Positions 6,249 through 33,922 of a DNA stretch of 33,922 nt are shown here, in pieces; the stretch's first letter is position 1; each line of letters begins with the position of its first letter. The notes beneath the pieces are model-generated. The model was not told the origin of the DNA, did no database searches, and saw nothing but the letters and a program-made list of their open reading frames with translations. The stretch comes from Planctomycetaceae bacterium. GTDB lineage: Bacteria > Planctomycetota > Planctomycetia > Pirellulales > UBA1268. A program made the position numbers and the translations under genes. The stretch is from positions 1-33,922 of the forward strand of contig CANFQO010000031.1 of assembly GCA_947449135.1 (NCBI GenBank), read 5' to 3'.

Positions 6249-6253
6249 GGAAA

Positions 6254-6326: not shown

Positions 6327-6369
6327 AACATCGGTCCACCGACAGACCCTACGGTATCGGGCTGTCGCG

Positions 6370-8173: not shown

Positions 8174-8251
8174 ACGCACATCCCTTCCAAACGCCAACGC
8201 ACGCACAACGCGTGCCCACGGAATATCGGCAGCAACCGGCCCGGCATGGGC

Positions 8252-8271
8252 GTGGTTTCACGTGAAACCAC
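8252..8271. promoter_or_regulatory. parS: parS centromere site 1
   Basis: The core GGTTTCACGTGAAACC (8254-8269) is a perfect palindrome that extends to 20 self-complementary bases. It matches the bacterial parS consensus TGTTTCACGTGAAACA at all central positions and lies just upstream of parA. It should be a ParB loading site and may let ParB regulate its own operon. Confidence 0.93.
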
Positions 8272-8298
8272 CCGCTTTGCGCAGCTTGCCTCGTCGCC

Positions 8299-8314
8299 GG
8301 TTTCACGTGGAACC
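8299..8314. promoter_or_regulatory. parS: parS centromere site 2
   Basis: GGTTTCACGTGGAACC differs from site 1 by one base in the right arm (A to G), a variation accepted in the consensus of many bacteria. It lies 45 bases from site 1, centre to centre. Confidence 0.88.
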
Positions 8315-8373
8315 TTTGCGGTGCGGCTCCCGTCGGCACAGAAGCCCCCGGAGGAAGCCGGAGTGCCGTGCTT

Positions 8374-9711
8374 TCACTCAAGCATGCTGAAGACCAGACC
8401 GCTGGCGAGCTTGGGATAGAAGTAGGTGCTCTTGGCCGGCATCCGTTCGCCGGTCTGACTCACCAGGCGTATGTCCTCCACGCTCGCTGGCATGACGAGG
8501 GTGGCCAGCGGATAGCGACCCGTCCCTAGGCCCTCCACCACCTCCCGTACCAGGTGCACGTAGCCTGGGGTGGGCAGCGCGGTGTGACTTGCATCCCGGC
8601 TTCCAAGCAGGTCATCGATCACGAGCCGGTGGAGGATTGACACGCCGAGTCTCCGCCAGGCGGCACCATGGTCAGCCGCCACCTGTTCCATTCTCGACCG
8701 CCCGACGGAAGTGATCCGCGCCAGGGTCCAGGCTTGGTCGCCAGCCGTGTAGAAGCCCAGTGTGCCCTGGTCGCCCTCGGCTTCGATTTCGAGCCAGACG
8801 TTCTCTGCCTCGGCTGGACCGACCCCCGCCGACTCGGTGGAGAAGCAGTCGCCAAGGGCCATAGAGAGTTGCCCGGCCGTGACGACGGCGGGCTGGAGAA
8901 AGAGCCGGTGCGTGGGGAGCACGACCAGCCCCGGATCGCTCATGCCCACCAGCATCATCAGGACGAAGTTGGCCGGATGGTCGGAGGGCAAAGGATCGCC
9001 CCCATGCGTCTCTGCGTAGGCCTGGGCGACCTCGTCGCGGTAGTTGCAGGCGGTCTCGTAGCGGTGGTGTCCGTCGGCAATGAACACCGGCTTCGGCCCC
9101 ATCAGTCCGGCCACTCTGGCGGCAACCGGCTCGTTCGTCATGGGCCACATCCGACTCCGCACCCCGAGATGATCGATCGCCTCCACAGGTGGCTGACCGG
9201 CCACCGCCGCGTCGAGGTGGGCCTGCACCTCACCCTCCGGGTCGGGATAGAGCCCGAAGACCTGGCTGAGGTTTGCCCGACAGGCCCGCGTGAGCAGGAG
9301 TCGGTCTTGCTTCGGGCCCGACATGGTCTCTTCGTGCGGATGAATGTTGCCGGTGCCGAAGCGTTCCAGCCGCACCCGGGCCATCACGCCCCGGCGGCAG
9401 TGCTTCTGCCCATCCACCTCGAACTCCTGGTGGTAGACATAGAGGGCCGCCGCCGACTCCTGCATGAGCACCCCTTGCTCCCGCCAGGCTTTGAGGAACT
9501 TCGCCGCCCGGGTGTATCGGTTTGAGAAATCGCTGTCGCCCGGTTCCTCACGATTGAGTTCGAGCCGCACCACGTTGGCGGGATGCTGTTCGTAGAGGCG
9601 GGTTTGCAACGCGGCATCGATGACGTCGTAGGGGGGCGCGATGACCTGCGAGAGGACACCGACATGCTTGGGGTCGTAGCGGAGGCCGCGGAGGGAGGCG
9701 ATCGAGGGCAT
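8374..9711 (-). CDS. DUF1015 family protein
   Basis: This 445-residue cytoplasmic protein belongs to the DUF1015 (COG4198) family, whose biochemical role is not established; relatives are sometimes labelled HTH or kinase-like proteins without proof. Family signatures are the N-terminal APPYDVID, the central PHEETMSGPKQDRL and VFGLYPDPEG, and the diagnostic ADGHHRYETACNYRDE. The start ATG at 9711 gives the conserved MPSIASLRGLRYDP opening; an upstream in-frame start at 9762 would add a proline/serine-rich tail without homology. No ribosome site is visible. It lies between the par locus and ahcY on the same strand and is separated from ahcY by a terminator, so it is probably transcribed on its own. 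Confidence 0.88.
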   Translation of the reverse strand: MPSIASLRGLRYDPKHVGVLSQVIAPPYDVIDAALQTRLYEQHPANVVRLELNREEPGDSDFSNRYTRAAKFLKAWREQGVLMQESAAALYVYHQEFEVDGQKHCRRGVMARVRLERFGTGNIHPHEETMSGPKQDRLLLTRACRANLSQVFGLYPDPEGEVQAHLDAAVAGQPPVEAIDHLGVRSRMWPMTNEPVAARVAGLMGPKPVFIADGHHRYETACNYRDEVAQAYAETHGGDPLPSDHPANFVLMMLVGMSDPGLVVLPTHRLFLQPAVVTAGQLSMALGDCFSTESAGVGPAEAENVWLEIEAEGDQGTLGFYTAGDQAWTLARITSVGRSRMEQVAADHGAAWRRLGVSILHRLVIDDLLGSRDASHTALPTPGYVHLVREVVEGLGTGRYPLATLVMPASVEDIRLVSQTGERMPAKSTYFYPKLASGLVFSMLE

Positions 9712-9834
9712 GCTGGTGCTGGTGTCCGGGGAGGTGGCGGGAGGAACGTGCCAGCGTAGCAAACCGGTGGGGTGCAGGATCGAGGCAGCAGGTTTTCAAC
9801 CCGACGAAGCCGGGAGCGTGCCCACTCGGGGCGT

Positions 9835-9850
9835 GTTTCCACGTGAAACG
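9835..9850. promoter_or_regulatory. Possible degenerate third parS
   Basis: GTTTCCACGTGAAACG keeps the CACGTG centre and the complete AAAC right arm, but the left arm is displaced by an extra C, giving three mismatches to the parS consensus. It lies between DUF1015 and ahcY, outside coding sequence. ParB binding would be weaker than at the two upstream sites. Confidence 0.4.
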
Positions 9851-9861
9851 TTCGTGGGCAA

Positions 9862-9897
9862 AACGAGAGCGGGGGCGTCGCATCGCGACGCCCCCGC
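9862..9897 (-). terminator. Rho-independent terminator of ahcY
   Basis: A 13-base-pair GC-rich stem (GCGGGGGCGTCGC with its complement, 9869-9897) closes on a three-base loop. On the minus strand it is followed by TCTCGTTTTG. It lies 36 bases past the ahcY stop and is the strongest terminator of this strand in the window. Confidence 0.85.
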
Positions 9898-9932
9898 CAT
9901 GAATCGAGGCGAGCCCACACAACGGGCTGGCA

Positions 9933-11246
9933 CTAGTAGCGGTAATACTCGGGCTTGAACGGGCCCTCGACCGGCACGTGGAGATACTCGGCCTGAGCGG
10001 GGGTGAGCTTGGTCAGCTTCACACCCAGCTTGTCGAGATGCAGGCGGGCAACCTCCTCGTCGAGCTTCTTGGGGAGCATGTGAACACCGATGTCGTACTT
10101 GTCGGTGTCGGTCCAGAGCGCGATCTGGGCCAGCACCTGATTGGTGAAACTCGTGCTCATCACGAACGACGGGTGGCCGGTGGCACAGCCGAGGTTCACG
10201 AGCCGGCCCTCGGCCAGCACGAGCACCGACTTGCCGCTCGGCAGCGTGTAGCGGTCAACCTGCGGCTTGATCTCCACCTTCTTCACGCCCTTGGTGTTTT
10301 CCAGCCAGGCGATGTCGATTTCGAGGTCGAAGTGTCCGATGTTGCAGATGATCGCGTCGTTGGGCATCTGCTGGATGTGCGACCCGAGGATGACGTCGCG
10401 GCAGCCGGTGGCCGTCACGAAGATCTGGCCACGGGAGGCGGCCTCCTCCATGGTCGTGACCTCGTAGCCTTCCATCGCGGCCTGCAGGGCGTTGATTGGG
10501 TCAACTTCGGTGACGATCACGCGGGCACCGAGCGCCTTCATGGAGTGGGCAGAGCCCTTGCCGACGTCACCGTAGCCGCAGACCACCACCACCTTGCCGG
10601 CCACCATCACGTCGGTGGCCCGCTTGATGCCATCCGCGAGGCTTTCGCGGCAGCCATAGAGGTTGTCGAACTTGCTCTTCGTGCAGGAGTCGTTGATGTT
10701 GATCGCCGGGAGCTTCAGTTCGCCGTTTTCGTGCATCTGGTAGAGCCGGTGTACGCCCGTGGTGGTCTCTTCTGAGAGACCGCGGATGCCGCCGATCAGT
10801 TCCGGATACTTGTTGTGCACCATCGAGGTGAGGTCGCCACCGTCATCGAGAATCATGTTGAGCGGCTCGCCGTCCGGGAAGAACAGCGTCTGCTCGATGC
10901 ACCAGTCGAATTCCTCGTTGGTCATGCCCTTCCAGGCGTAGACCGGGAAGCCGGCCTTGGCGATGGCAGCAGCAGCGTGATCCTGCGTGGAGAAAATATT
11001 GCAGCTGCTCCAGGTCACGTCCGCGCCAAGTTCCTTCAGCGTTTCGATGAGGACGGCCGTCTGGATTGTCATGTGCAGGCAGCCGGCAATCCGCGCTCCG
11101 GCGAGGGGCTTCGACCGGCCATACTTCTGACGAAGGGCCATCAGGCCGGGCATCTCGTTTTCGGCCAGCATGATCTCCTTGCGGCCCCAATCGGCCAGCG
11201 AGAGATCAGCGACTTTGTACGGCAGGCGGGTTTCGACTTGCGACAC
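9933..11246 (-). CDS. ahcY: Adenosylhomocysteinase (S-adenosylhomocysteine hydrolase)
   Basis: The 437-residue cytoplasmic enzyme splits S-adenosylhomocysteine into adenosine and homocysteine, removing the product inhibitor of SAM methyltransferases. Family features run the full length: [16 protein letters not shown] with the substrate-site histidine, [29 protein letters not shown], the [13 protein letters not shown] segment, the NAD-binding [17 protein letters not shown], the ATGCRDVI and HFDLEID region, [11 protein letters not shown], and the invariant C-terminal KPEYYRY. The start is GTG at 11246, supported by AGGAG about eight bases upstream. It has its own likely promoter behind trpF and a strong terminator. 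Confidence 0.97.
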
Positions 11247-14731: not shown

Positions 14732-16660
14732 TCACTTGCCCTGGATGCCGAGCGGGTCAAACGCCTTGCCGGTGGGCGTCGGCGTGGCGAACGGTGCTGG
14801 ACCAAGCGTGGATTGGCCAGGAACAGCCTGTTCGATCACTGAGGGATTTCCAAATGGTCGCTCCGGCGTCAGTTGGCCCGAGGCCGCGGGGGCCGGGACC
14901 GTCTGCTCGCCAAGAGCAACCGCGAGCCCCTCTCTGGCATCTTTCAAATTTGGGTTGAGCTCGAGAGCCTTGCGGAAATACAGGACCGCCTCTTCCTTGT
15001 TGCCAAGCTTGTAGAGCGTGACTGCGTAGTTGTTGAGGAGGGCCGGATTCTTCGGCTCCTTCTCCAACAGCGTGAGGAATTTCTCGCTCGCTTCGGCGAA
15101 GCGGCCGGCCTGGAAGAGCGAGTTGGCGAGGTTCACATGCATGGCCGGCACGTGCGGGGTGAGTCGACAGGCCTCGGTAAATTCCTTGATCGCCTCGTTG
15201 AGCCGGCCTTTGGCAGAGAGTGCCGAACCGAGATTGTTGTGGGTTTCGCCGAGATCGGGCCGGAGTTTCGTGGACTGAGTGAAGTGGTAGAAGCCCCCCT
15301 CGATGTCGCCGCGGGAGAACTTTTTGGCGCCGAGCCGATTATGGGCCTGCCAGGCGTTGTTGTTTGTCTTGAGCGTGTGCGTCCAGAGGGCGTCCTCGCT
15401 GGCCCAGGCATTCGCATAGCGAAACGAGAGCAGCCCGCACGTGGCCAGCAGGACAGCCCCGCCGGCGAGGATGAGCGGTTGGGCAGATTCTATTGACCGT
15501 TCGTACCACCGCGTGGCCGCCGCACCGATCAGGGCGATCACGCCAATCATCGGCAGGTAGATGAAGTGGTCGGCCACCCAGGTGATCCGCATGTAGGAGA
15601 TCGTGACGAAGCCAAGCACCGGCAGCACCATCAACAGGAAGAAGCCAAAACCGAGCGCGGCGTGACGGCCCCACTGGGGACGGGCGGCCGTGCCCCGGTT
15701 GGCCCAGATCAATGCAGCCGTGGCGGCGATGACAGGCCAGGCGAGGAACTGCCAGAATTTCGGTGGATCGACCTCCCACCGCGGATAGATCGGCAGCAGG
15801 TTCACCGGCCAGACGATCTGCTTGAGATAGAAGAGGATTGCCATGCCTGCCGTGGCGGTCCGCGAGGCCACGCCACCGACGAGTATCGTCTCCGCCCCGA
15901 TGGCCCGGCCGTGCTGGTATTGAATGGTGATGATGCCGAGCACGAGCGAGATCAGAAAGAAGGGGGACGTTCGGACGAGGTCCTGCAGCGTGACGGCGCC
16001 ACGTTTCCACCAGGCGTGCAGCAGGAGCACGACCGGCAGCGCGACCATCGATGTCTTCGCCAGCATCGCCAGCAGGAAAAACAGGATCGAGAGGCCGTAG
16101 AGCCATGCTCGCCGACCGGAGGCTCGTTCGTCGTCTTGCGAGACCCAGCAGAGGCAGGAAAGCAGGCAGAGTGGCAGTGAGAGCGTGTTCTTCGTTTCGG
16201 AGACCCAGGCCACCGATTCGACGCAGACGGGGTGGATGGCAAAGATCAGGCTGCTCAGCCAGGCGCCGGGGATCCGCATCCGGGCCAGCAGGGCCCAGAG
16301 GGTAAGCGCACCGGTGAGATGCAAGAGGATGGTGGTGACGTGGTAGCCGGTGGGCTGGGGGCCAAAGAACGGCCACTGCGCCCAGAGGGCACTGTAGGAG
16401 AGCGGAAAGAAGTCGGCGCCGTCGGGATAGAACCAGAGTTTGGCGAGGCCCTTCAGCGAGCCCGACTGCACCACCGGGTTGGCGGTGAGCAGTTGATCGT
16501 CGTCCCAGAGCCAGTCGCCGTGGTAGGCCGGAGAATAGATCCACAGGCACGCGAGTACGATGATCGCTGCATGGAGCAGGAGGTTAATCCAGCGGCTGGA
16601 TTCGCTCGAGAGGAGACTTGCGTCGCGGGAAGCGATCGCTGAGGCAGGGGGAGCTTTCAT
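14732..16660 (-). CDS. TMTC/GT-C-like membrane protein with C-terminal TPR repeats
   Basis: This 642-residue protein has about ten to twelve membrane helices followed by a soluble TPR region. Early loops hold WLWDDDQLL, an acidic loop of the type that is catalytic in GT-C glycosyltransferases using lipid-linked sugars, then FFPLSYSALW, FAIHPVCVESVAWVSETKN and FLLAMLAKTSMVALPVVLLL, as in TMTC/protein O-mannosyltransferase-like families. The C-terminal third has at least three TPR units (for example GETHNNLGSALSAKGRLNEA, VPAMHVNLANSLFQAGRFAE and NPALLNNYAVTLYKLGNKEE), then a Pro/Ala-rich tail. ATG 16660 is preferred, four bases after the upstream stop; an ATG at 16699 overlapping that gene is possible. 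It is the last gene of a three-gene operon. The sugar and target are unknown. Confidence 0.85.
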   Translation of the reverse strand: MKAPPASAIASRDASLLSSESSRWINLLLHAAIIVLACLWIYSPAYHGDWLWDDDQLLTANPVVQSGSLKGLAKLWFYPDGADFFPLSYSALWAQWPFFGPQPTGYHVTTILLHLTGALTLWALLARMRIPGAWLSSLIFAIHPVCVESVAWVSETKNTLSLPLCLLSCLCWVSQDDERASGRRAWLYGLSILFFLLAMLAKTSMVALPVVLLLHAWWKRGAVTLQDLVRTSPFFLISLVLGIITIQYQHGRAIGAETILVGGVASRTATAGMAILFYLKQIVWPVNLLPIYPRWEVDPPKFWQFLAWPVIAATAALIWANRGTAARPQWGRHAALGFGFFLLMVLPVLGFVTISYMRITWVADHFIYLPMIGVIALIGAAATRWYERSIESAQPLILAGGAVLLATCGLLSFRYANAWASEDALWTHTLKTNNNAWQAHNRLGAKKFSRGDIEGGFYHFTQSTKLRPDLGETHNNLGSALSAKGRLNEAIKEFTEACRLTPHVPAMHVNLANSLFQAGRFAEASEKFLTLLEKEPKNPALLNNYAVTLYKLGNKEEAVLYFRKALELNPNLKDAREGLAVALGEQTVPAPAASGQLTPERPFGNPSVIEQAVPGQSTLGPAPFATPTPTGKAFDPLGIQGK

Positions 16661-16664
16661 CCCA

Positions 16665-18290
16665 TTAGTATCCTGTTTTTCTGTCTCGTGACCAGTCATC
16701 GTGGCTGACCGGTGCGAGCAGTCGCTTCAGAGCTTCCGCCATTGGCCGCTCCATCGCGAGTGCCTCCACGCGGGCATCGGGATCGGTGAGCCTCGGATCG
16801 ATCTCGATCGCCTTGGCGACCGCTTCCGCCGCCTCGGTCGGGCGGCCCTGTTCGTCGAGGATCAGCGCAAGAGTGGCCCAGATATCCCCTCGCTGTCCAT
16901 TCGAGAGCCGAATCGCCTCGCGGGTGGCCTGTTCGGCCTCGGCCAGCCGGCCGGCTTCACGGAGTGCCTCGCCAAGCCCCGCAGCATTCGTGAACGAGGT
17001 CGGGTTTTTTCGGTAGGAGTCGTCCCACAGGGCAAGCGAATGAGCCCACACCCGCTGCCGTTCGATGCAGATCAGCCCGAGCAGGGCGACGGCCGCCATG
17101 CCGCCGACGAGGGCCCGCCGGCGAAGAAGCTCGCGGCCCGCGAGCCAGGGGGCATCGAGCAGGCAGGCGATTGTCAGCGCCACGCCCGCCATCGGCAGAT
17201 AGAGATACCGGTCGGCAGCGGCACGGTAGATCGGGATCAGGTTGGCCACAGGCACCAACGGCAGCAGGATCAGGGTGTAGGCGAAGAGGAGACGACGGTC
17301 GTGCCGGGCTGCAATCGTGGCGATGACGGCGATCGCAGCCAGAAGAAAGAGGGCGATGGACAATGGCAAGTGGCTGACGGAAGCAAGTCCATAGTCGGCG
17401 CAGAGATTGACTGGGAAAAGGATGAGCTGAGCGTAGAGCGCGAGAATCCGGGGCTCGATCAGCATGGCCTGGGCCAGTGATCCACCAGGGTATTCCGGCT
17501 TGGTTTCGAAGATCTTCGAAGGATTGGGCTCGAGCAGAAAACGGGCGGCGAGGAAGGCGATCACGATGAGCTTTGCCCCACCGATGGCCATCGCCCAGAA
17601 TCGTTCCGGCTCGCCCCGACGAAAAAGCCACCAATAGGCGGCCAGCAGCATCGGGGCGACGATTCCCGCCTCCTTGCTGGCGATCGCCAGCAGGCAGCAA
17701 CCGATGCAACCGAGGGACCGCCAGCGGTCGTACCCGGGAGTAGCGGGATCATGGGCCATGGCGAGCACGAGGGCAGAGAGCGAAAAGAGGGCCACCAGCA
17801 GGTCCTCGCGAAAGGTGGGCTCGCAGACGGCCTCGGCGACGATGGGGTGCACTGCGAAGATCAGCGCGGTCAGCAGAGGGAGCAGCATCTTTTCGGGCAT
17901 GGACACAGGCCCAGTCGTTGGGCAGGCCTGCGATGCAGGCTGCGGTTGAGTCAGCTCCCGAATGATCAACCAAAGAAGCAGGACATTGGCCACGTGCAAC
18001 AGCACGCTGGTGAGGTGATACCCAAAGGGCTCCCTGCCCCAGACGGCCGCGTCGAGCATGAGCGAGGCCAGCATTACCGGCCGGTTGAAGTCGAGCACGT
18101 CCATCCCCAAGACGCGAAAGCTGAGCACGGCAGGCCAGTTGTGCCAGTCGTGAATAAAGGTGCCCGTAAGGATCTGCATCCGGGCGTCGTAGACGAAGTC
18201 GGCTCCGAGCGTGGAGGAGAAAACGGCAAAGGCGACCACGGCGAGCACCGCCGCCTGCTGCCAGTTCTTTCCATCCATGGGCGAGTTCAT
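16665..18290 (-). CDS. TMTC-like membrane protein with short TPR tail
   Basis: This 541-residue polytopic protein is related in layout to the next gene downstream. Its first outer loop has FVYDARMQIL, where the family usually has an acidic DD/DE pair, so the catalytic motif looks weaker. It then shows FNRPVMLASLMLDAAVWG, EPFGYHLTSVLLHVANVLLL, FAVHPIVAEAVCEPTFREDL and IASKEAGIVAPMLLAAYWWL, matching the TMTC/O-mannosyltransferase-like arrangement. After about ten helices a cytoplasmic or periplasmic tail (about 435-525) contains two TPR-like units (GLGEALREAGRLAEAEQATR and LILDEQGRPTEAAEAVAKAI). It starts four bases after the stop of the upstream gene. Possibly a paralogue specialised or impaired in catalysis; function is inferred only from layout. 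Confidence 0.82.
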   Translation of the reverse strand: MNSPMDGKNWQQAAVLAVVAFAVFSSTLGADFVYDARMQILTGTFIHDWHNWPAVLSFRVLGMDVLDFNRPVMLASLMLDAAVWGREPFGYHLTSVLLHVANVLLLWLIIRELTQPQPASQACPTTGPVSMPEKMLLPLLTALIFAVHPIVAEAVCEPTFREDLLVALFSLSALVLAMAHDPATPGYDRWRSLGCIGCCLLAIASKEAGIVAPMLLAAYWWLFRRGEPERFWAMAIGGAKLIVIAFLAARFLLEPNPSKIFETKPEYPGGSLAQAMLIEPRILALYAQLILFPVNLCADYGLASVSHLPLSIALFLLAAIAVIATIAARHDRRLLFAYTLILLPLVPVANLIPIYRAAADRYLYLPMAGVALTIACLLDAPWLAGRELLRRRALVGGMAAVALLGLICIERQRVWAHSLALWDDSYRKNPTSFTNAAGLGEALREAGRLAEAEQATREAIRLSNGQRGDIWATLALILDEQGRPTEAAEAVAKAIEIDPRLTDPDARVEALAMERPMAEALKRLLAPVSHDDWSRDRKTGY

Positions 18291-20358: not shown

Positions 20359-21453
20359 ATGAATCACCGTGACCTCTTTGAAGATTTGTTCGTGCTCGAA
20401 GTGGCTAACAACCATTGGGGGAGCGTGGATCGCGGCCTCGAGATCATTCGGCAGCATTCGCGGATCGTGCGGTTCAACAACGTGCGGGCGGCGATCAAGC
20501 TCCAGTTTCGCGATGTCGACAACTTCATTCACAAGGAGTTCCGCGACCGGCAGGACGTCCGCTACATCAAGAAGACCATCGACACGAAGATGTCGAAGGA
20601 CGACTACGCGACGCTTGTCGCAGCGGTCAAGAAGGCCTCGTGCATCCCGATGGCGACTCCTTTCGACGAGGCATCGGTCGATCTCTGTGTGGAACTCGGC
20701 GTGCCGATCATCAAGATCGCCAGTTCCGACATGAACGACTGGGTGCTCCTCGAAAAGATCGCTGCCACGAAGCGGCCAGTGATCGTGTCGACCGGCGGAA
20801 CCTCCCAGAAAGACACTGACGACCTCGTAGCGTTTTTCGAGCGGCGGAACATCCCCCTCGCAATCAATCACTGCGTTTCGCTGTACCCAACGGAAGAAGA
20901 TGAGCTTGAGCTGAATCAGGTCGACTATCTCAAGGCCCGATATCCCGGCCATGTCGTCGGCCTCTCCACGCACGAGCATGCCGACTGGCAGGCCTCGATG
21001 CTCATCGCCTACGCGAAGGGCGCCCGTACGTTCGAACGGCACATCGACATTGATGCGAACGGCATCGCAGTCTCCCCGTATTGTTCCCTGCCCGAGCAGG
21101 TTGATACCTGGTTCAAGGCATTCGCACGGGCGAGGAACATGTGCGGTGGCAGTCCCGACCAAAAGCGACGGCCGCCTGACCGCGAGGTTGAGTACCTCGA
21201 TGCTCTCGTGCGAGGAGTGTACGCAAAGCGAGATCTTCCAGAAGGCTACGTGCTCAATCACGACACGATGTACGACGATCTCTATCTGGCGATTCCCCTC
21301 CAAAAGGGGCAGATCTCCTGTCGAGAGCTGATGTCGGGCGAGACCCTGCAGCGGCCCGTTCAGAAGGATCAGCCGATCACGATCGATGCGATCGACAGTG
21401 CGTACGCGTACACGTCACAATTGAAGGAACTGATCATGCGGAGGGGGTTGTGA
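20359..21453 (+). CDS. NeuB-family (sialic/nonulosonic acid synthase-like) enzyme
   Basis: The 364-residue protein is related to NeuB/LegI/PseI, which condense phosphoenolpyruvate with an aldose in a TIM barrel. Conserved landmarks are LEVANNHWGS (E14), AAIKLQ (K47), PMATPFDEASVDL, IKIASSDMNDWVLLEKI, VIVSTGGTSQKD, the metal ligands in NHCVSLYPT (H171) and GLSTHEH (H205), and TFERHIDID (225-232). The last replaces the usual EKHFTLD, with Arg for Lys. Residues about 290-355 (RGVYAKRDLPEGYVL and later KGQISCREL) look like a SAF-type antifreeze-like domain. The open frame extends 226 codons upstream but only ATG 20359 onward is coding. It is the first gene of a tightly coupled five-gene operon. 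The true acceptor sugar is unknown; no NeuA or NeuC homologue is in the window. Confidence 0.87.
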   Translation: MNHRDLFEDLFVLEVANNHWGSVDRGLEIIRQHSRIVRFNNVRAAIKLQFRDVDNFIHKEFRDRQDVRYIKKTIDTKMSKDDYATLVAAVKKASCIPMATPFDEASVDLCVELGVPIIKIASSDMNDWVLLEKIAATKRPVIVSTGGTSQKDTDDLVAFFERRNIPLAINHCVSLYPTEEDELELNQVDYLKARYPGHVVGLSTHEHADWQASMLIAYAKGARTFERHIDIDANGIAVSPYCSLPEQVDTWFKAFARARNMCGGSPDQKRRPPDREVEYLDALVRGVYAKRDLPEGYVLNHDTMYDDLYLAIPLQKGQISCRELMSGETLQRPVQKDQPITIDAIDSAYAYTSQLKELIMRRGL

Positions 21454-22667
21454 CCGGCGATCCCAAAGTGTGGAACGCCCGTCGCCCATGTCCCCAATGC
21501 GGGGCCGTGTCTGTGCAAACGGTTCACAAGGGCAGATACGTCCTCCCGACGGACCATCCTCTCGATCCCGTCGTTCACGTCGTCGCGTGTGCTGGCTGCG
21601 GGTTTTGTTTCAACGACACCCCGAATGCACGCGAGGACTACGACCGCTACTACCGCGACATTTCAAAATACGCCGACCCCCGTCTCTCCAGCGGGTCGGG
21701 CGCCGTCGTGGAAGACCGTGAACGGCTACGGGATACAGCGAGTGACATCCGCGATTTCGCAGGGGGCACGGATCAGCGGATCCTCGACATCGGGTGCGGT
21801 GCGGGGGGCCTGCTCGACAGCCTCGCCGAGTTCGGATTTCGGTCTCTTTCAGGGATGGACCCAGCCCCTGCATGTGCGGCTGCTGTCAGTGAACGAGGCC
21901 ATCGGGGCGTGGTTGGCACGCTCGATAACCATCCGCTTGACCCCGGGGCGTTCGACGGCGTCATTCTGAGCCATGTCCTCGAACACGTGCGTGACGTGCC
22001 GGCAGCACTGGCGAGCGTTGCGCGGCTCCTGACGCCGCAAGGGTGGCTCTACGTCGAAGTGCCCGACGCGGCCAGATACGGGGAGTGCCTGATTGCTCCG
22101 TTCCAGGATTTCAACCTCGAGCACATCAACCATTTTTCTGCGGCGACGCTTCACAACGCACTGAACGCATGCGGTTGGGAAACAGTTCGCAACGGTTCGA
22201 AGACACTGCCGCTGCCGCACGGCCGCCGGTATCCAGCGATCTTCGCCTTCTCGCGGCCGGCCGGATCGCTCGCCGCTTTGCAGGATCTCGGCACGCGGGA
22301 TGCTCTTGGGGCATATGTCGCGCTTTCCGCGGAGTTCATGCAGCGCATCGACCAGCGGCTTCAGCAAAGTGTCGCCGGGCAGCGTGTTGTGGTCTGGGGC
22401 GTTGGTCAGTTGACGATGCGACTGCTTGGCGAGTCCACCCTCGGCGATGCCGACATTGCCGTGTTCGTCGATTCCAACCCGGTCCACCATGGCCGGACGT
22501 TGGCTGGCCGACCCATCGTCGCGCCCCATGCACTCGCCAGTCATGTCGACGCCGACACCCCGATCGTGATCGGATCGCTTGTCAATCTGGAATCAATCGA
22601 GGCCTCGATCCGTAACCACGGGCTCTGCAACCCGATCATTCGCCTCGTAGCGATGGAGTCTGCCTGA
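21450..22667 (+). CDS. Zinc-binding sugar C-methyltransferase (TylCIII/NovU type)
   Basis: The 405-residue SAM enzyme has the three-part layout of NDP-4-keto-6-deoxysugar C-methyltransferases. An N-terminal zinc knuckle has CPQC (14-17) and CAGC (47-50). A Rossmann SAM domain contains ILDIGCGAGGLLDSL (about 110-124), FDGVILSHVLEHVRD and the FNLEHINHFS segment, equivalent to the family's catalytic Glu-His motif. A C-terminal second Rossmann-like domain shows VVVWGVGQLTMRLL (about 312) and VFVDSNPVHHGRTLAGRPIV. It would add a branch methyl to C3 or C5 of a nucleotide keto-sugar. It starts with GTG inside GTGA, overlapping the previous stop by four bases, with GGAGGGG just upstream. The substrate is not proven. 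Confidence 0.88.
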   Translation: MTGDPKVWNARRPCPQCGAVSVQTVHKGRYVLPTDHPLDPVVHVVACAGCGFCFNDTPNAREDYDRYYRDISKYADPRLSSGSGAVVEDRERLRDTASDIRDFAGGTDQRILDIGCGAGGLLDSLAEFGFRSLSGMDPAPACAAAVSERGHRGVVGTLDNHPLDPGAFDGVILSHVLEHVRDVPAALASVARLLTPQGWLYVEVPDAARYGECLIAPFQDFNLEHINHFSAATLHNALNACGWETVRNGSKTLPLPHGRRYPAIFAFSRPAGSLAALQDLGTRDALGAYVALSAEFMQRIDQRLQQSVAGQRVVVWGVGQLTMRLLGESTLGDADIAVFVDSNPVHHGRTLAGRPIVAPHALASHVDADTPIVIGSLVNLESIEASIRNHGLCNPIIRLVAMESA

Positions 22668-24484
22668 TGCGCCTCGCCGACTATTGCATGCAGTTCCTCG
22701 CCGACCGTGGCGTGCAGCACGTCTTTCTCGTGACCGGCGGCGGCGCGATGCACCTGAACGACGCTCTCGGGCGGGAACCGCGGATTCAGTATGTCTGCAA
22801 CCATCACGAGCAGGCCGCCGCGATGGCGGCTGAGGGCTACGCCCGTGTCACCGGAAAGCCCGGCATTGTCAGCGTCACCAGTGGCCCCGGTGGCGTCAAT
22901 GCGCTCAACGGCGTATTCGGTGCGTTCACCGATTCGTGTCCCATGATCGTGCTCTCCGGACAGATGAAGCGGGAGACGCTCCTGGCGACGCACGGCCTGC
23001 TTGGAAGGCTCCGTCAACTGGGTGACCAGGAAGTCGACATTGTCGGCATGGTGCACACCATTACGAAATCAGCAGTGCTGCTCACCGATCCGCAGCGTGT
23101 TCGTTACGAATTGGAGCGGGCCTGGCACCTCTGCCAATCCGGTAGGCCAGGCCCCTGCTGGATCGATATTCCAGTGGATGTGCAGGCGGCCGACGTGGAG
23201 CCAGATTCACTCGAGGGCTATCGGCCGCAACAGCCCCTGGGCGTTCTTGCGCACCACGACGTCACGAGACTCGCCGAAACCGTACTCTCGAAGATTGGGG
23301 CTGCCGAGCGGCCTGTGATCCTGGCAGGTACTGGCGTGCGGATCGCGGGGGCGACCGAGGTGTTTCGACGAGTGGTCGCGAAACTCGGCATCCCTGTGGC
23401 GACTGCATGGACCCACGACGTGATCGAAACGTCGGACCCCTGCTCCTGCGGGAAGGCGGGCAGCATTGGCAACCGTCCTGGCAACTTTACGGTACAAAAC
23501 AGCGATCTCGTGCTGGTGATCGGCTCCCGGCTCAACATCCGGCAGGTGAGCTACAACTGGGAAAACTTCGCCCACCATGCCGAGAAGATCATCGTCGACA
23601 TCGATCCAGAGGAACTGGCCAAGCCGATGGTCCGACCCGATCTTCCGATCTGTGCGGACGCCAAAGACTTTCTCGAATCGCTCGAGTCAGCGATCGACGC
23701 TCATGGCTTCGATCGCTCGCGGCACGCTTCGTGGCTCGCCTGGTGTCGGGATCGCGTTGCGCGGTATCCGGTGTTCGATCCGGTGCGGCAGGCATCTCGA
23801 TCGGGTGCCATCAACCCCTATCATTTCGCCCGCGAACTCTTTTCCGTTCTGGCGGAGGACGACGTGCTTGTCTGTGGCGATGCCACGGCATGCATCGTGA
23901 CCTTCCAGTCGTCGGTCATCCGGGCCCAGACGCGGCTGTTTTCGAACTCCGGCTCTGCGTCGATGGGCTATGACCTGCCGGCGGCAATCGGGGCCGCCGT
24001 GGCCCGAGGGGGCAAACGGGTGATCTGTCTCGCTGGCGACGGCAGCCTGCAGATGAATATTCAGGAACTCCAGACCGTCCGTCACCACGGATTTCCGATC
24101 AAGCTCTTTGTGCTCAACAACGGCGGCTATCTCTCGATCCGCCAGACGCAGACTGCATTCTTCGGCCTGGCGGTTGGCGCTGGGGCGGAAAGCGGCGTTT
24201 CCTGCCCGGATTTCGTCCGGGTGGCCGAGGCCTACGGCCTGCCGGCGTCGCGACTGAGCGAGCCGAACTTCACGCCAGACCTGTCGGCGATCCTCGCTGC
24301 CCCTGGACCGCATCTCTGCGAGGTCATGCTCGATCCGGCACAGGGTTTCGAGCCGAAGCTCTCGTCACGCCGTCTGCCTGATGGGCGGATGGTATCGTCG
24401 CCCCTCGAAGACATGGCACCGTTTTTAGATCGTGATGAACTGGATGAGAATCGGCTTGCTCCCGTCTCTGGTAGGAAAATATGA
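22667..24484 (+). CDS. Acetohydroxyacid-synthase-like thiamine diphosphate enzyme
   Basis: The 605-residue protein has the complete three-domain TPP fold. The N-terminal PYR domain carries FLVTGGGAMHLNDALG and the catalytic Glu48 in CNHHEQAAAMAAEGYARVTG. A central domain (about 195-340) contains VILAGTGVRIAGATEVFRRV. The C-terminal PP domain has the TPP/Mg motif GDGSLQMNIQELQTVRHHG ending at LNNGGY (about 455-485). It resembles IlvB but sits in a sugar locus and lacks an IlvN partner. Similar proteins in O-antigen clusters include YerE, which moves an acetyl unit from pyruvate onto CDP-3,6-dideoxy-4-ketoglucose. Translation is coupled both ways: TGATG with the previous gene and ATGA with the next. 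A function as sugar acyltransferase is inferred. Confidence 0.85.
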   Translation: MRLADYCMQFLADRGVQHVFLVTGGGAMHLNDALGREPRIQYVCNHHEQAAAMAAEGYARVTGKPGIVSVTSGPGGVNALNGVFGAFTDSCPMIVLSGQMKRETLLATHGLLGRLRQLGDQEVDIVGMVHTITKSAVLLTDPQRVRYELERAWHLCQSGRPGPCWIDIPVDVQAADVEPDSLEGYRPQQPLGVLAHHDVTRLAETVLSKIGAAERPVILAGTGVRIAGATEVFRRVVAKLGIPVATAWTHDVIETSDPCSCGKAGSIGNRPGNFTVQNSDLVLVIGSRLNIRQVSYNWENFAHHAEKIIVDIDPEELAKPMVRPDLPICADAKDFLESLESAIDAHGFDRSRHASWLAWCRDRVARYPVFDPVRQASRSGAINPYHFARELFSVLAEDDVLVCGDATACIVTFQSSVIRAQTRLFSNSGSASMGYDLPAAIGAAVARGGKRVICLAGDGSLQMNIQELQTVRHHGFPIKLFVLNNGGYLSIRQTQTAFFGLAVGAGAESGVSCPDFVRVAEAYGLPASRLSEPNFTPDLSAILAAPGPHLCEVMLDPAQGFEPKLSSRRLPDGRMVSSPLEDMAPFLDRDELDENRLAPVSGRKI

Positions 24485-25611
24485 CTTCCGATTTGGATCA
24501 GGACCATCTGCATAGGCTGCTCACGGCACAGCCTGCAGCCACGCTCCCGCTCGGCACGGCACCACTGGTGCTCTATGGTGCGGGCCGGAAAGGGCGTGTG
24601 ACGCTCAGGTTGCTCCGTGAAGCTGGCTACCACGTGGCCGCGATGATCGACGCGACGGCGTCGGGGGTATGTGAAGGGGTTCCGATCCTGCGACTGAAGG
24701 ATCCCGGAGTTGCTTCGCTGGCGCATGACGGTGCGACTGCGATCGTCACCATCTTCAATCCAGCTGTGGATCCGCTGCCGGTCCACCACGCCCTTGTCGC
24801 CAGTGGCTTCGGCCGAGTCGTCGGTGCCGTGGAACTGTGTCAATTGGTCTCCGGTACCGACGCCTACTGGCTGGCACCCGCCGACACGATGACGCCGTCT
24901 GCGGACGCAGCCGGATGGCTTTTTGACAAACTTGCCGACGAAAAGAGCCGGAACACACTGGTGGAAGCGGTTGGACTTCGTCGGACATACTGCCCGACGC
25001 GGCTCCGCGAGCCGACGACACAAGACCAATACTCTCCGGCAGACATCCCCCTGCCCCGCAGCCGAGTCAGGCTCATCGACGGCGGAGCGTTCGAGGGCGA
25101 CACGGTCGCGCACCTGGCCGCGGCAGGCTTCCAGTGTGACGCCATCGCTGCCTTCGAGCCTGATCTGGTGAATTACGCCGCGCTTGGCCGCTGCGTGGCC
25201 GCAGCGCCACCGTGCAAGGAAATTAGTCTGTGGCCGTGCGGTCTTGATCGATCGACGAGGCAGTTACGGTTTCGCGCCGATGGATTGGCAAGCAGCGGTA
25301 TTGCTGACAGCGGCGATGTCGTCATTCAGACGGTGAGTCTCGACGAAGCACTCCCGTGGTTTGCGCCCACCTACGTGAAGCTCGACATCGAGGGAGCCGA
25401 GGAGGCGGCGTTGCACGGCATGGCGAAAACTCTCTGCTCGAGCCGGCCGGCTCTTGCCGTGTGCGTCTATCACAAGCCTGCCGATCTGTGGGAACTGCCA
25501 CGGCTGGTCGACGAGTTGCTCCCAGACTCCCGCTTCTATCTCCGTTCCCATGCTTGGAACGGATTTGACCTCGTGCTGTATGCGTTGCCGCACGAGATGG
25601 GGAAGTCGTGA
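24481..25611 (+). CDS. FkbM-family methyltransferase with N-terminal Rossmann-like domain
   Basis: The 376-residue protein has two parts. Residues about 25-130 form a nucleotide-binding-like domain with LVLYGAGRKGRVTLRLLREA and AMIDATASGVCEGVPILRL, similar in style to the last domain of the C-methyltransferase two genes upstream. Residues about 190-370 are an FkbM SAM methyltransferase: RLIDGGAFEGDTVAHLAAAG (SAM loop), AAFEPDLVNYAALGR, VKLDIEGAEEAALHGM (about 298) and the late RSHAWNGFDLVLYALP. FkbM enzymes usually O-methylate sugars or polyketides. Start ATG 24481 overlaps the TPP gene by ATGA. A role in methylating the sugar made by this operon is likely but inferred. Confidence 0.87.
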   Translation: MTSDLDQDHLHRLLTAQPAATLPLGTAPLVLYGAGRKGRVTLRLLREAGYHVAAMIDATASGVCEGVPILRLKDPGVASLAHDGATAIVTIFNPAVDPLPVHHALVASGFGRVVGAVELCQLVSGTDAYWLAPADTMTPSADAAGWLFDKLADEKSRNTLVEAVGLRRTYCPTRLREPTTQDQYSPADIPLPRSRVRLIDGGAFEGDTVAHLAAAGFQCDAIAAFEPDLVNYAALGRCVAAAPPCKEISLWPCGLDRSTRQLRFRADGLASSGIADSGDVVIQTVSLDEALPWFAPTYVKLDIEGAEEAALHGMAKTLCSSRPALAVCVYHKPADLWELPRLVDELLPDSRFYLRSHAWNGFDLVLYALPHEMGKS

Positions 25612-26276
25612 TGCTGCAGTCGGGTATCGGGAATGCGGTGTTCTTCGACCTCGACGGCACACTCGCCGATTCAGCCCGCGGCATCGTCGCGTCGCTCGAA
25701 AGCGCTCTCGCGGCATGTGGCATACCGTCGCCCGATGTCGATTGGCTGCAGTTCATCGGCCCGCCGCTCCCGCGGATGCTTGAAGCCGCCCTGCCTGGCA
25801 TGGAGCAGTCTCAGCGGGACAACGTGATTGCCGCCTACCGTCAGCACTATGCGTCGACTGGGCTGTATGAGACCGCTCTCTTTCCAGGTGTGGAGGAGCT
25901 TTTGCGGCGGCTCGCGCACGATGGCCGGCGGATGTACATCGTGACGAACAAACCGCAGGCTCCAGCCGAAGCCATCGTCGCCCACCTGAAACTCGACTCG
26001 TTGGTGCGCCGTGTCGTCGGCGGTGATCCCACTGGACGAAGCACGAAGCCCGATCGTGCCGCAGCGCTCGTGGAGGCAGAAGGGCTCGCGGGTGGCACCT
26101 TCGTTGGCGACGGCCTGGACGACCTGTATGCGGCCGAGCGGATTGCAGCGAGGTTCCTTCTCGCGTCGTGGGGCTACGGTACCGCCTGTGTGCTCTCCGA
26201 GCGTCCTGATGTGCCGTTGCTGAATCAGCCCGCCGATCTTCTCAGTGCCATCGCATTAGACCCGCACCGCGGCTGA
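25611..26276 (+). CDS. HAD-superfamily phosphatase (phosphoglycolate-phosphatase-like)
   Basis: The 221-residue subfamily IA HAD hydrolase shows all four motifs: nucleophile FFDLDGTLADS (near residue 12), motif II IVTNKPQAPAE, the motif III lysine in TKPDRAAALVEA and motif IV FVGDGLDDLYAAERI. A helical cap lies between (about 25-85). It most likely removes phosphate from a small sugar phosphate, for example a phosphorylated product of the NeuB-like enzyme upstream; that link is inferred from operon position. The start is ATG 25611 in TGATG with the FkbM stop; GTG 25608 is an alternative. It ends three bases before the opposing glycosyltransferase stop, with no room for a terminator. Confidence 0.88.
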   Translation: MLQSGIGNAVFFDLDGTLADSARGIVASLESALAACGIPSPDVDWLQFIGPPLPRMLEAALPGMEQSQRDNVIAAYRQHYASTGLYETALFPGVEELLRRLAHDGRRMYIVTNKPQAPAEAIVAHLKLDSLVRRVVGGDPTGRSTKPDRAAALVEAEGLAGGTFVGDGLDDLYAAERIAARFLLASWGYGTACVLSERPDVPLLNQPADLLSAIALDPHRG

Positions 26277-26279
26277 CCA

Positions 26280-27332
26280 TCACTCCGATGTGGTGACTGT
26301 CCTGACAGTGGCCGCATCGGACGCGTGCGCCACCCGCTCCAGTTCCACCACCAACGGTCGCTTGCGCACCTGCGTGAGTACGGCACCAACGTATTCGCCG
26401 AGCAGGCCGATCAGGAAGATCTGTGCGGACCCCAGGAAGAAGATTCCGATCACCGCGGGTGCGTATCCCGCCGGAAGCGAATACCAAAAAGTGAGTTTGA
26501 GAGCGAGGAACCCCAGCGCCACGACGAGCGAGAGCCCGCTCAAGATGAACCCCGTGATCGTGGCCACGCGGAGTGGCACTTTCGAATGGCTGGTGATGCC
26601 GAGGATCGCCAGGTCGACGAGCGTGTGGATGTTGTTCTTCGTGATGCCGCGCTTTCTCAGCGGCTGGTCGTAGGGAATGAGCGTGTAGGGCAGGCCGATT
26701 TCCGCGATCATGCCACGTCCATACGGGTAGGGGTCGGCAAACCCCCGCATGATTTCGACCACGCGGCGGTCATAGAGTCCAAAACCAGTCACGTGCTCCA
26801 GAAGCGGCACCTCCGACATCGCCCGAGCGAGTTTGTAGTAGAGCCCACGAAGGGCGAAAAAACTGGGCGATTCCTGACTGGTGCGCTTCTGGCCCAAAAC
26901 CATGCTCGCCCCGCGCTCCCACTGCTCCAGGAATTGCGGGATCAATTCCGGCGGATCCTGGAGGTCGGTGCACATCGCGATCACGCAGTCGCCGGCCGAC
27001 TCCAAGATGGCATGAAACGGAGAACGAATGTGGCCGAAGTTCCTGGCGTTGACGATCACTTTCACCCGGTGATCTTGGATGGCGAGAGCCTTGAGCTTGA
27101 CCACGGTTCCATCCGTGGAGGCATTGTCAATAAAGAGCATCTCGAACGAGTATCCGGGCAGGCCTTCAAGAACCTTCGAGATTCGTCCGTAGAGTTCGTC
27201 GACGTTCCCCTCCTCGTTGTAGCAGGGAAGCACCAACCCCACGCTGCCGCCTCGGCGAATCTGCCACGTCGCCAACTCAGGCCGAGAGATGTTCTCTGCG
27301 GCTCCGCTGGTATCACTGGATAGAGAAGCCAT
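26280..27332 (-). CDS. GtrB/ArnC-like membrane glycosyltransferase family 2
   Basis: This 350-residue enzyme has a GT-A domain with VGLVLPCYNEEGNVDELYGR (31-50), LFIDNASTDGT (66-76), NARNFGHIRSPFHAIL (95-110) and CTDLQDPPELIPQFLEQW (121-138), typical of the GtrB/DPMS group that loads a sugar onto undecaprenyl phosphate. QPLRKRGITKNNIHTLVDLA is the conserved R-x-x-G-x-(S/T)K region ahead of the membrane part. Two C-terminal helices (about 258-283 and 290-320) end with a cytoplasmic tail. The start is supported by AGAGGG about eight bases upstream. It is the last gene of the minus-strand group that begins with rfbH and could make the lipid-linked donor for the two membrane proteins upstream. 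Confidence 0.92.
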   Translation of the reverse strand: MASLSSDTSGAAENISRPELATWQIRRGGSVGLVLPCYNEEGNVDELYGRISKVLEGLPGYSFEMLFIDNASTDGTVVKLKALAIQDHRVKVIVNARNFGHIRSPFHAILESAGDCVIAMCTDLQDPPELIPQFLEQWERGASMVLGQKRTSQESPSFFALRGLYYKLARAMSEVPLLEHVTGFGLYDRRVVEIMRGFADPYPYGRGMIAEIGLPYTLIPYDQPLRKRGITKNNIHTLVDLAILGITSHSKVPLRVATITGFILSGLSLVVALGFLALKLTFWYSLPAGYAPAVIGIFFLGSAQIFLIGLLGEYVGAVLTQVRKRPLVVELERVAHASDAATVRTVTTSE

Positions 27333-31921: not shown

Positions 31922-33016
31922 TCACGCTGTGTGAAAGGCGACGGGAGTTGATCCATTTTCGATCGCCGCCAGCATCGTCAGGCGAATCGACTCGTCGAGC
32001 GACGTGGCGGGCACCAGTCCCAGTTCCTCTCTCGCCCGCCGACACTCAGGAACGTACCGCTCGGCGGGAGTTCCCGGCTGTGGTTGTTTCGCCATCAGGA
32101 TCTCCGGCCGGCCGCGGTCGGGCCAGACACTGGCCGCGATATCCGCCACGCGTTCAGCAAGTTGACGGATCGAGACCGCTTCTTCGCTGCCCACGTTGTA
32201 GGCCCGACCAGACTCACCGCGGAGCAGAATCACGACCAGCCATTCTGCGAGATCTGCCGCATAGAGATAGCTACGGAAGGGAGTGCCGTCGCCGCCGATC
32301 CTGATCGGCCCGCCTGCCACACAATCGCGGATGAAATTGCCGATCGCGAAGTGCGCGTCGAGTGGCAGATGCGGCCCGATAAAGGCGAAGCATCGGGCGA
32401 TCGACACATGCAAACTGACATCCGCAGATGGTCGCGCCGCCATCGCACAGAGCATTTCAGCGGCCCGCTTGCCCTCCGCATACGCATTCCGCACGTCGAG
32501 TTGAGCGGGCCCGCCGAGAAAATCCTCCGACACACGCTCGAGGTCCGGGGGCTGCCGGCCGTAGACGGCGCCGGAGCTCGTGAACAGGAATCGCTGGCAG
32601 CCTTTCTCCCTCGCGAGCAAGAGCATCCGCCTCGTGCCGTCCACGCAGGTGTCAAACATCGTCTGCGGGTCGCTTGCGTTGAGCGATGCGCTCGCCTCCG
32701 TCGCCGCGTGGATGACATGGGAGACGGGCTCATCCGGAAAGCGAAAGCTGCGAACGTCTCCCTCGATGAAGGAGACGGCCGGATCGACAGCCAGGTGCGG
32801 CGACTTGGCGGTGAACCGGGCTGGATCCCGTGACAACACCATCACGCGGCAGCCGAGCGACCGCTCGCGGTTGGCGGCCAGCACCGCTTCCAAGAGCCAG
32901 GTGCCGAAAAAACCCGTGCCCCCACTGATGAACAGGCTCGCTCCGCGGAGCGGCTCCCACAGCGATGGCGTGCGGGCGAGCAGACGGGCAATGTCGGCGG
33001 CGATGATCGTGGTCAT
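31922..33016 (-). CDS. NAD-dependent sugar epimerase/reductase (extended SDR)
   Basis: The 364-residue extended short-chain dehydrogenase has the NAD-binding LFISGGTGFFGTWLLEAVL (about 28-46), EGDVRSF, HVIHAATEASASLN, the catalytic-site FTSSGAVYG, YAEGKRAAEML with the Tyr-x-x-x-Lys pair, RCFAFIGPHLPLD, GNFIRDCVAGGPIRIGGDG, RSYLYAADLAEWL and YNVGSEEAVSIRQLA. It is similar to epimerases/reductases commonly found with CDP-dideoxysugar genes. Being one base downstream of the rfbH stop (TAGCATG), it likely reduces or epimerises the RfbH product, as CDP-abequose or CDP-paratose synthases do. The exact product cannot be told from sequence alone. Confidence 0.87.
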   Translation of the reverse strand: MTTIIAADIARLLARTPSLWEPLRGASLFISGGTGFFGTWLLEAVLAANRERSLGCRVMVLSRDPARFTAKSPHLAVDPAVSFIEGDVRSFRFPDEPVSHVIHAATEASASLNASDPQTMFDTCVDGTRRMLLLAREKGCQRFLFTSSGAVYGRQPPDLERVSEDFLGGPAQLDVRNAYAEGKRAAEMLCAMAARPSADVSLHVSIARCFAFIGPHLPLDAHFAIGNFIRDCVAGGPIRIGGDGTPFRSYLYAADLAEWLVVILLRGESGRAYNVGSEEAVSIRQLAERVADIAASVWPDRGRPEILMAKQPQPGTPAERYVPECRRAREELGLVPATSLDESIRLTMLAAIENGSTPVAFHTA

Positions 33017-33017
33017 G

Positions 33018-33922
33018 CTAGCCCCGCACGAAGGCGGAGACCGTGTCGACAACATGATCGATGTGGGCGTCGGACAGGCCCGGATAGACGCCCAGCCAGA
33101 GCGTGTGACGCATGATGTAGTCGGCGCCGGGAAGCTCGCCTGCCACCCGTTGCGGCTTGCCATGATAGGCCGGCTGCCGAAGCAGATTCCCGCCGAAAAG
33201 CTGCCGTGTGCCGATCTTCTTCTCGTCGAGATGCCGGACGAGATCCCGCCGCGTGAACCTCGCCGTCGGCCGCACCGAGAGCGGAAAACCAAACCAACTC
33301 GGATTCGAGCCAGGAGTCGCTTTGGGGAGCACGAACACATCTTCGAGCGGTGCGAGGCCGGCCCGTAGACGGGTGTAGTTGTGCCGACGCGCGGCGATAA
33401 ACCCGTCCAGTTTGTCGAGCTGCGCGACGCCCACCGCCGCCTGCATATCGGTGAGCTTCAGGTTGAAGCCGATGTGTGAGTAGATGTATTTGTGGTCGTA
33501 GCCGTGCGGAAGGTCACCGAGTTGCCAGTCAAACCGCTTGCCACAGGTATCGTCGTGGCCCGGTTCACACCAGCAGTCGCGGCCCCAGTCGCGAAAGCTC
33601 TCCACCAGCTTTTCGAGCTTCGGCGAATCGGTGAAGACGATGCCCCCCTCCCCCATCGTCATGTGATGGGCGGGATAGAAGCTGCAGGTCGCCAGATCAC
33701 CAAACTGGCCCACGTGCTTTCCGCCAAACTCTGCGCCGAGCGCATCGCAGCAGTCCTCCAGGAGCCAGAGATCGTGCCGGCGGCAGAAATCGGCGACCGC
33801 AACACAGTCGAAAGGATTGCCGAGGGTGTGGGCGAGCATCACCGCCCGGGTCTTTTCGCTACGGGCCGACTCCAGGCGATTGACGTCAATGTTGTAGGTA
33901 GCGCGGGTCTCGGGATGCTCCA
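33018..33922 (-). CDS. rfbH: CDP-4-keto-6-deoxyglucose 3-dehydrase (E1), 5' end outside window
   Basis: About 300 C-terminal residues are present; the frame runs open to the window edge ([18 protein letters not shown] at its start). It belongs to the DegT/DnrJ/EryC1 aminotransferase fold but carries [14 protein letters not shown]. The residue aligned with the PLP-binding lysine is histidine, the hallmark of the PMP-dependent dehydrase RfbH/Ddh[21 protein letters not shown] holds three of the four cysteines expected to bind its [2Fe-2S] cluster; the Cys in [12 protein letters not shown] (or one in [11 protein letters not shown]) is the likely fourth. [20 protein letters not shown] is also typical. 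The enzyme removes the 3-hydroxyl of CDP-4-keto-6-deoxy-D-glucose with a partner reductase, on the path to 3,6-dideoxyhexoses. Its partners RfbF and RfbG would lie outside the window. Confidence 0.94.

Follow-up and report, generated by a model that had tools for sequence, protein, structure and literature searches.

What sugar would a bacterium make with a relative of the sialic acid synthases, a sugar C-methyltransferase, and a thiamine diphosphate (ThDP)-dependent enzyme encoded in one operon? The question is raised by a five-gene cassette in a 33,922-nucleotide stretch of DNA from a Planctomycetaceae bacterium (GenBank assembly GCA_947449135.1, contig CANFQO010000031.1). This stretch, referred to here as the window, is an entire contig (C31). 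An initial annotation of the sequence took the cassette to be a single pathway to an unusual branched or C-methylated sugar acid. All five open reading frames were found where it had placed them, all four of the overlaps that it had listed between consecutive genes are present (GTGA, TGATG, ATGA, and TGATG), and its assignments to the NeuB, FkbM, and HAD families were borne out by Pfam (PF03102, Methyltransf_21, and HAD_2). Our analysis suggests, with a probability of about 0.77, that the locus is an assembly line of the YerE type for a branched sugar, with its own arm supply. The NeuB-like enzyme would provide the arm donor, and the ThDP enzyme would attach the arm to C-4 of a cytidine diphosphate (CDP)-linked ketosugar.

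The ThDP enzyme had been described as similar to acetohydroxyacid synthase (AHAS). However, among solved structures it matched 8RPH best (418 bits, 39% identity), and AHAS I scored 234 bits. The structure 8RPH is JanthE of Janthinobacterium sp. HH01, because it is named as such (PMC12188165), its chain has the unusual CDG motif, and the JanthE active-site residues V121, Y268, P293, Y297, and K567 are in place. The window enzyme keeps a GDG motif at residues 457 to 459, H47, and the HHEQ motif, and its Y296 and K564 align with Y297 and K567 of JanthE. YerE-like enzymes remove CO2 from a 2-oxo acid and transfer the remaining acyl group to the C-4 ketone of a CDP-3,6-dideoxy sugar, which yields branched sugars of lipopolysaccharide (PMC12247030, PMC12188165). 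The window enzyme is most likely of this ketone-accepting branching type, with acyl transfer to a ketone as its predicted reaction. The superfamily similarity to AHAS might instead reflect a spare acetolactate synthase (ilvB), a role that the initial annotation had itself named as an alternative. The probability of this explanation is close to nil. The acetolactate synthase model TIGR00118 (NCBIfam) gave 346 bits against a cutoff of 538, JanthE is far closer, and the true AHAS of the genome is encoded on contig C4 (718 bits). These three results ruled out an ilvB paralogue.

An enzyme of this type needs a ketosugar acceptor. The initial annotation reported no aminotransferase partner for the cassette, and this statement holds, but it overlooked a DegT-fold gene that runs off the right end of the window and encodes RfbH, the CDP-4-keto-6-deoxyglucose-3-dehydrase. 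The RfbH model NF011936 gave 510 bits for the C-terminal part of the protein and 190 bits for the N-terminal part. In addition, histidine replaces the lysine that binds pyridoxal phosphate, and the iron-sulfur cysteines are present (CWC..C in the translation). An aminotransferase was ruled out by the model score, the lysine replacement, and the cysteines. When the genome was searched with RfbF and RfbG from related loci, contig C52 (locus L084) was found, and its positions 1 to 34 are identical to window positions 33889 to 33922, an exact 34-base end overlap inside rfbH. The RfbH frame runs on across the overlap and is followed on C52 by RfbG and RfbF, each above its curated cutoff. The assembly thus splits rfbH in two, and a DegT-like gene at a contig end is easily misread as an aminotransferase. 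RfbF, RfbG, and RfbH form the pathway to CDP-4-keto-3,6-dideoxyglucose. Because all three are complete across C31 and C52, the genome should make this sugar, as predicted from genes about 7 kb from the cassette.

Scanning Genome Taxonomy Database genomes with the NeuB-like protein yielded 72 loci at 53 to 91% identity (73 records counting the window) in Planctomycetota, Acidobacteriota, Bacteroidota, Pseudomonadota, Verrucomicrobiota, Chloroflexota, Bacillota, Patescibacteria, and other phyla, as judged from record titles. A ThDP gene lies beside the close NeuB ortholog in 69 of the 73 records; of the four without it, three are contigs of 3 to 5 kb. This confirmed an association between the two genes far beyond chance. 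The arrangement is therefore not peculiar to this genome, although the exact order of five genes, whose recurrence the initial annotation had proposed to look for, is not what is conserved. RfbH was found in 55 records, RfbF in 50, RfbG in 47, and any of the three in 58. The other partners were less constant: short-chain dehydrogenase/reductase (SDR), 40; FkbM, 33; family 2 glycosyltransferase (GT2), 30; HAD, 26; and methyltransferase, 18. The conserved core is NeuB and the ThDP enzyme with RfbF, RfbG, and RfbH, and the FkbM, HAD, and methyltransferase genes are tailoring functions that come and go. A plasmid collection searched with the NeuB-like and ThDP proteins contained no match. No paper linking NeuB with a YerE-like enzyme was found in the open-access literature, which leaves most subscription journals outside, and the pairing across many phyla does not seem to have been described.

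The usual products of NeuB enzymes are nonulosonic acids. The NeuB-like protein matched PF03102 at 132 bits, and residues that bind phosphoenolpyruvate (PEP) and metal (K47, T100, K119, S122, S203, H205, H228, and E14) are conserved among its homologs. Its structural model resembles 3G8R, a Chromobacterium violaceum protein of unknown function (Z score of 39), and NeuB (Z score of 32). The equivalent of N184 in NmNeuB is S or A in the homologs. At the position of R314, the SAF-domain arginine responsible for N-acyl binding, 70 of the 72 have I or V; the window position was read from alignments with 3g8r and NmNeuB. The models for sialic acid (TIGR03569) and pseudaminic acid (TIGR03586) synthases gave 114 and 104 bits, against cutoffs of 400 and 340. 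Genes like KdsB or NeuA for activation with cytidine monophosphate (CMP) were detected beside the NeuB-ThDP pair in only two loci (L035 and L060), a near-lack that fits activation through CDP-glucose. Synthesis of sialic, legionaminic, or pseudaminic acid was ruled out by the model scores, the lost arginine, and the scarcity of CMP-activating genes. A separate group of 3G8R-type NeuB proteins, about 41 to 44% identical to the protein of the window, has no JanthE-like gene nearby (L098, L099, and L100).

If the NeuB-like enzyme supplies the donor, then loci that lack it should hold another maker of a similar 2-oxo acid. An independent sample was chosen by the ThDP gene (E of 1e-95 or stricter) from four taxonomic groups, leaving out the center genomes already obtained through NeuB, and wider flanks were taken and mapped. 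The 41 loci contained NeuB (20 loci), an HpcH/HpaI-family aldolase (12 loci), DmpG with the acetaldehyde dehydrogenase DmpF (3 loci), or no such gene (3 loci); in the remaining three the contig was too short. Exactly one donor type was present in 35 of the 38 loci with enough flank, and in none did two types occur together. Nine of the 20 NeuB proteins were at least 66% identical to a member of the known set, and eleven were 29 to 45% identical. The centers of the donor and ThDP genes were 1.3 to 4.7 kb apart. The HpcH gene of one locus (L085), which another reading frame overlaps, was recognized by tblastn at 50% identity, and representatives of every donor type were checked with Pfam. All three enzyme types are expected, from their families, to make 4-hydroxy-2-oxo acids.

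Seven RfbH loci without a strong ThDP match served as a control. One of the seven has a weaker ThDP gene (35%) and also an HpcH gene; the six without any ThDP gene contained no donor enzyme (0 of 6). The comparison of 35 of 38 with 0 of 6 gave a Fisher P value of 1.2e-5 (3.1e-4 when restricted to the four longer contigs), values that serve only as guides because related loci are not independent. The presence of a donor enzyme therefore goes with that of the ThDP enzyme, not with that of the CDP-sugar genes. Donor type is also clustered on the ThDP tree, with 6 changes versus 12.9 in shuffled data (lowest, 8 in 500 shuffles), and the window enzyme groups with the NeuB-type enzymes (SH-aLRT support of 100). 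The sister enzymes of loci L133 and L135 (SH-aLRT support of 100) adjoin HpcH and NeuB, respectively. This result indicates that the two donor genes replace each other, as would be expected of interchangeable donors.

JanthE groups with two enzymes, at 57% identity, that adjoin DmpG/DmpF and carry the CDG motif. Therefore, 4-hydroxy-2-oxopentanoate is predicted as its natural donor. JanthE accepts 4-hydroxy-2-oxovalerate (PMC12188165), and its physiological substrates have not been identified (PMC12247030, PMC12188165). The D120/R292 pair of the window enzyme is common to about nine NeuB-type and ten HpcH-type enzymes, whereas JanthE and its two DmpG-type relatives have V/P at these positions, a distribution that mirrors the tree and does not count as independent evidence. 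Genes for DmpG, a 4-hydroxy-2-oxovalerate aldolase, and DmpF adjoin JanthE-type enzymes, together with RfbF, RfbG, and RfbH, at L137 (8630 to 12422), L138 (8532 to 12352), and L090 (4351 to 8068). Such loci probably lead to a four-carbon arm like the one in erwiniose or aurantose. A further companion of ThDP loci with either HpcH or NeuB is an AroB-like sugar-phosphate phospholyase (TIGR04425), seen with an SDR at L001 (3789 to 6887) and also at L062, L057, L042, L010, L133, L139, L149, and L161, in some cases along with an FGGY kinase. The phospholyase may shape the arm by deoxygenation or ring closure.

The cluster might serve two sugars, with the ThDP enzyme adding an acetyl branch from pyruvate, as in yersiniose, and NeuB separately making an ulosonic acid for the same glycan. 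YerE does use pyruvate with a CDP-4-keto-3,6-dideoxy sugar (PMC12247030), and an ulosonic acid would be in keeping with the usual NeuB product noted above. However, the arginine that binds the N-acyl group is lost, and CMP-activating genes adjoin the pair in just the two loci named above. Furthermore, the exchange of NeuB for HpcH or DmpG beside the same ThDP family would not be expected unless the ThDP enzyme used the keto acid. A two-sugar cluster is therefore unlikely. Alternatively, the ThDP enzyme might only decarboxylate the NeuB product, leaving an aldehyde lengthened by two carbons to an unbranched 2-deoxy sugar. NeuB would yield a 2-oxo acid, and simple 2-oxo acid decarboxylases belong to the ThDP superfamily. 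This explanation is nevertheless quite improbable, because the nearest characterized relative is a ketone-accepting carboligase and the ketone-supplying RfbF, RfbG, and RfbH travel with the NeuB-ThDP pair.

Two published findings agree with NeuB supplying the arm. The YerE-like enzyme ErwE prefers 4-hydroxy-2-oxo acids (PMC12247030). The arm of caryophyllose is 1,3,4,5-tetrahydroxyhexyl (PMC5706390), which is the acyl part that a 3-deoxy-2-ulosonate donor would leave and thus fits the proposed donor type. Several observations weigh against an arm supplied by NeuB. No Rfb gene was found in 15 of the 73 NeuB records, several of them on short contigs. The Pfam scores behind the HpcH assignments are modest (24.8 to 36 bits, cutoff of 25), and three ThDP loci (L089, L091, and L160), two of them in the outermost clade, have no donor enzyme within reach. 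Because pyruvate is also a substrate of JanthE and YerE, NeuB might have some other function, and the reactions assigned to the NeuB-like and ThDP enzymes of the window are predictions only. At locus L089, positions 6163 to 10558 hold tandem ThDP enzymes (reading frames of 859 and 610 amino acids) and two RfbH-like genes.

The remaining genes of the locus (Table 1) could complete the sugar. The initial guess of a sugar C-methyltransferase is backed by the AlphaFold model of the protein (pLDDT of 92), which matched KijD1, TcaB9, and MtmC over the full length, across about 360 residues, with Z scores of 30 to 31; the next methyltransferase family gave 19. Y74, E178, H179, E224, and H225 are invariant in the alignment. 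Neither the zinc-binding N-terminal nor the C-methyltransferase C-terminal domain of Pfam was found in the protein at an E value of 0.001 or below. The model supports the three-domain fold of nucleoside diphosphate (NDP)-sugar C3-methyltransferases, and a plausible target is C-3 of CDP-4-keto-3,6-dideoxyglucose, beside the ketone. The FkbM enzyme probably carries out O-methylation. We propose that the HAD phosphatase dephosphorylates the keto acid or its precursor; in other loci, too, HAD genes separate the ThDP gene from an HpcH or divergent NeuB gene. The keto group remaining on the arm would be reduced by the SDR, in a role like that of YerF. The genes flanking the cassette on either side are on the opposite strand, and the GT2 partner often occurs together with GtrA. 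Two proteins containing TPR repeats (window positions 14732 to 18290) have homologs encoded close to the cassette in several Acidobacteria (L005, L008, L012, L013, and L018) and are possible partners in glycan transfer.

Table 1. Cassette genes and associated sugar genes in the window
Feature	Position	Strand	Remarks
NeuB-family synthase, 364 aa	20359..21453	+	ATG start; PF03102
S-adenosylmethionine (SAM) methyltransferase	21450..22667	+	Pfam Methyltransf_23; predicted fold of NDP-sugar C3-methyltransferases
YerE/JanthE-like ThDP enzyme	22667..24484	+	Pfam TPP_enzyme_N/M/C; 418 bits to 8RPH
FkbM-family methyltransferase	24481..25611	+	PF05050 Methyltransf_21, TIGR01444
HAD phosphatase	25608/25611..26276	+	PF13419 HAD_2
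GT2 polyprenyl-phosphate-type glycosyltransferase, convergent to cassette	26280..27332	-	PF00535
SDR, NAD-epimerase fold	31922..32971	-	PF01370; GxxGxxG and YxxxK present
RfbH C-terminal part, cut by contig end	33018..33922	-	NF011936 510 bits, cutoff 423

From the observed gene content and families, the complete CDP pathway, the conservation, and the exchange of NeuB for aldolases, we infer the following substrates, order of steps, and product. RfbF, RfbG, and RfbH would make CDP-4-keto-3,6-dideoxy-D-glucose. The NeuB-like enzyme would condense PEP with an aldehyde, either a sugar or a sugar phosphate, to a 2-oxo-3-deoxy-4-hydroxy acid, the arm donor, and the HAD enzyme would remove the phosphate if the aldehyde was a sugar phosphate. 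The ThDP enzyme would then decarboxylate the keto acid and add the acyl anion to the ketone at C-4 of the CDP sugar. This addition would give a tertiary alcohol that bears a polyhydroxylated side arm. After reduction of the remaining arm ketone by the SDR, the C-methyltransferase (perhaps at C-3, next to the 4-ketone) and the FkbM enzyme would decorate the sugar, and the convergent GT2 system would transfer it to a surface glycan. The predicted product is a CDP-linked, C-4-branched 3,6-dideoxyhexose that has a polyhydroxylated arm and may also carry 3-C-methyl and O-methyl groups.

A single pathway to an unusual branched, C-methylated sugar, as read in the initial annotation, is well supported, but the term "acid" is probably wrong. 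NeuB enzymes make acids, and a C-methyltransferase fold is present, so a branched or C-methylated sugar acid could be envisaged as the end product. Such a product is very improbable: the cassette has no dedicated CMP-activating gene, activation would run through CDP-glucose, and the carboxylate should leave as CO2 in the ThDP step. The carboxyl carbon would be lost and the activated sugar would be a CDP-dideoxyhexose, not a CMP-ulosonic acid; the branched, C-methylated product is therefore probably neutral.

Known systems share parts of this arrangement. The YerE pathway to yersiniose A in Yersinia and Pseudomonas, which was compared by description, likewise has an RfbF/G/H-type supply of a CDP-4-keto-3,6-dideoxy sugar, a YerE-like ThDP enzyme, and an SDR for the branch keto group. 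However, its two-carbon branch comes from pyruvate, whereas in the window family a NeuB-like synthase is the constant ThDP partner. ErwE (erwiniose, compared by description) and MMAR_2332 (caryophyllose) are alike in ThDP branching with long 4-hydroxy-2-oxo acid donors, which gives a 2'-deoxy-3'-hydroxy arm; in the window the donor maker would be NeuB-like and PEP dependent. JanthE differs in its CDG motif and V121/P293 (GDG and D120/R292 in the window enzyme), and its nearest relatives adjoin DmpG/DmpF, not NeuB. The NeuB-like protein shares the TIM barrel, the C-terminal SAF-like domain, and the PEP and metal residues with NeuB, PseI, SpsE, and 3G8R, but it differs in having Ile/Val for the arginine that binds the N-acyl group, in lacking NeuC/NeuA partners, and in its pairing with a ThDP enzyme. 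The methyltransferase resembles TcaB9, KijD1, and MtmC in its full-length predicted fold, at about 20% identity and without the Pfam domains of that family being recognized.

It is fairly probable that there is a widespread, modular family of higher-carbon branched sugars. A core of RfbF, RfbG, RfbH, and a JanthE-like enzyme would be combined with exchangeable arm modules: NeuB with PEP, HpcH with pyruvate, or DmpG/DmpF with acetyl coenzyme A and pyruvate, in some cases with the AroB-like phospholyase. With the NeuB branch, a relative of the sialic acid synthases would be seen for the first time to feed a ThDP carboligase. There is interest in YerE-like enzymes as biocatalysts that yield tertiary alcohols, but most of the more than 200 proposed members have no known natural product or substrate (PMC12247030, PMC12188165). 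The neighboring donor-forming enzyme would provide a simple genomic rule for predicting the natural donor of each.

The pairing would also assign a function to a NeuB subfamily that occurs in many phyla and would otherwise be called sialic acid synthase, and it would thereby correct predictions of sialic acid-like sugars in environmental bacteria. In four Pseudomonas loci (L025, L028, L043, and L050) fliC and fliD lie about 6 to 10 kb from the NeuB gene. Because the cassette is next to these genes, it probably belongs to a flagellin glycosylation island there, and its sugar probably decorates flagellin. These Pseudomonas loci are places where the product could be measured directly.

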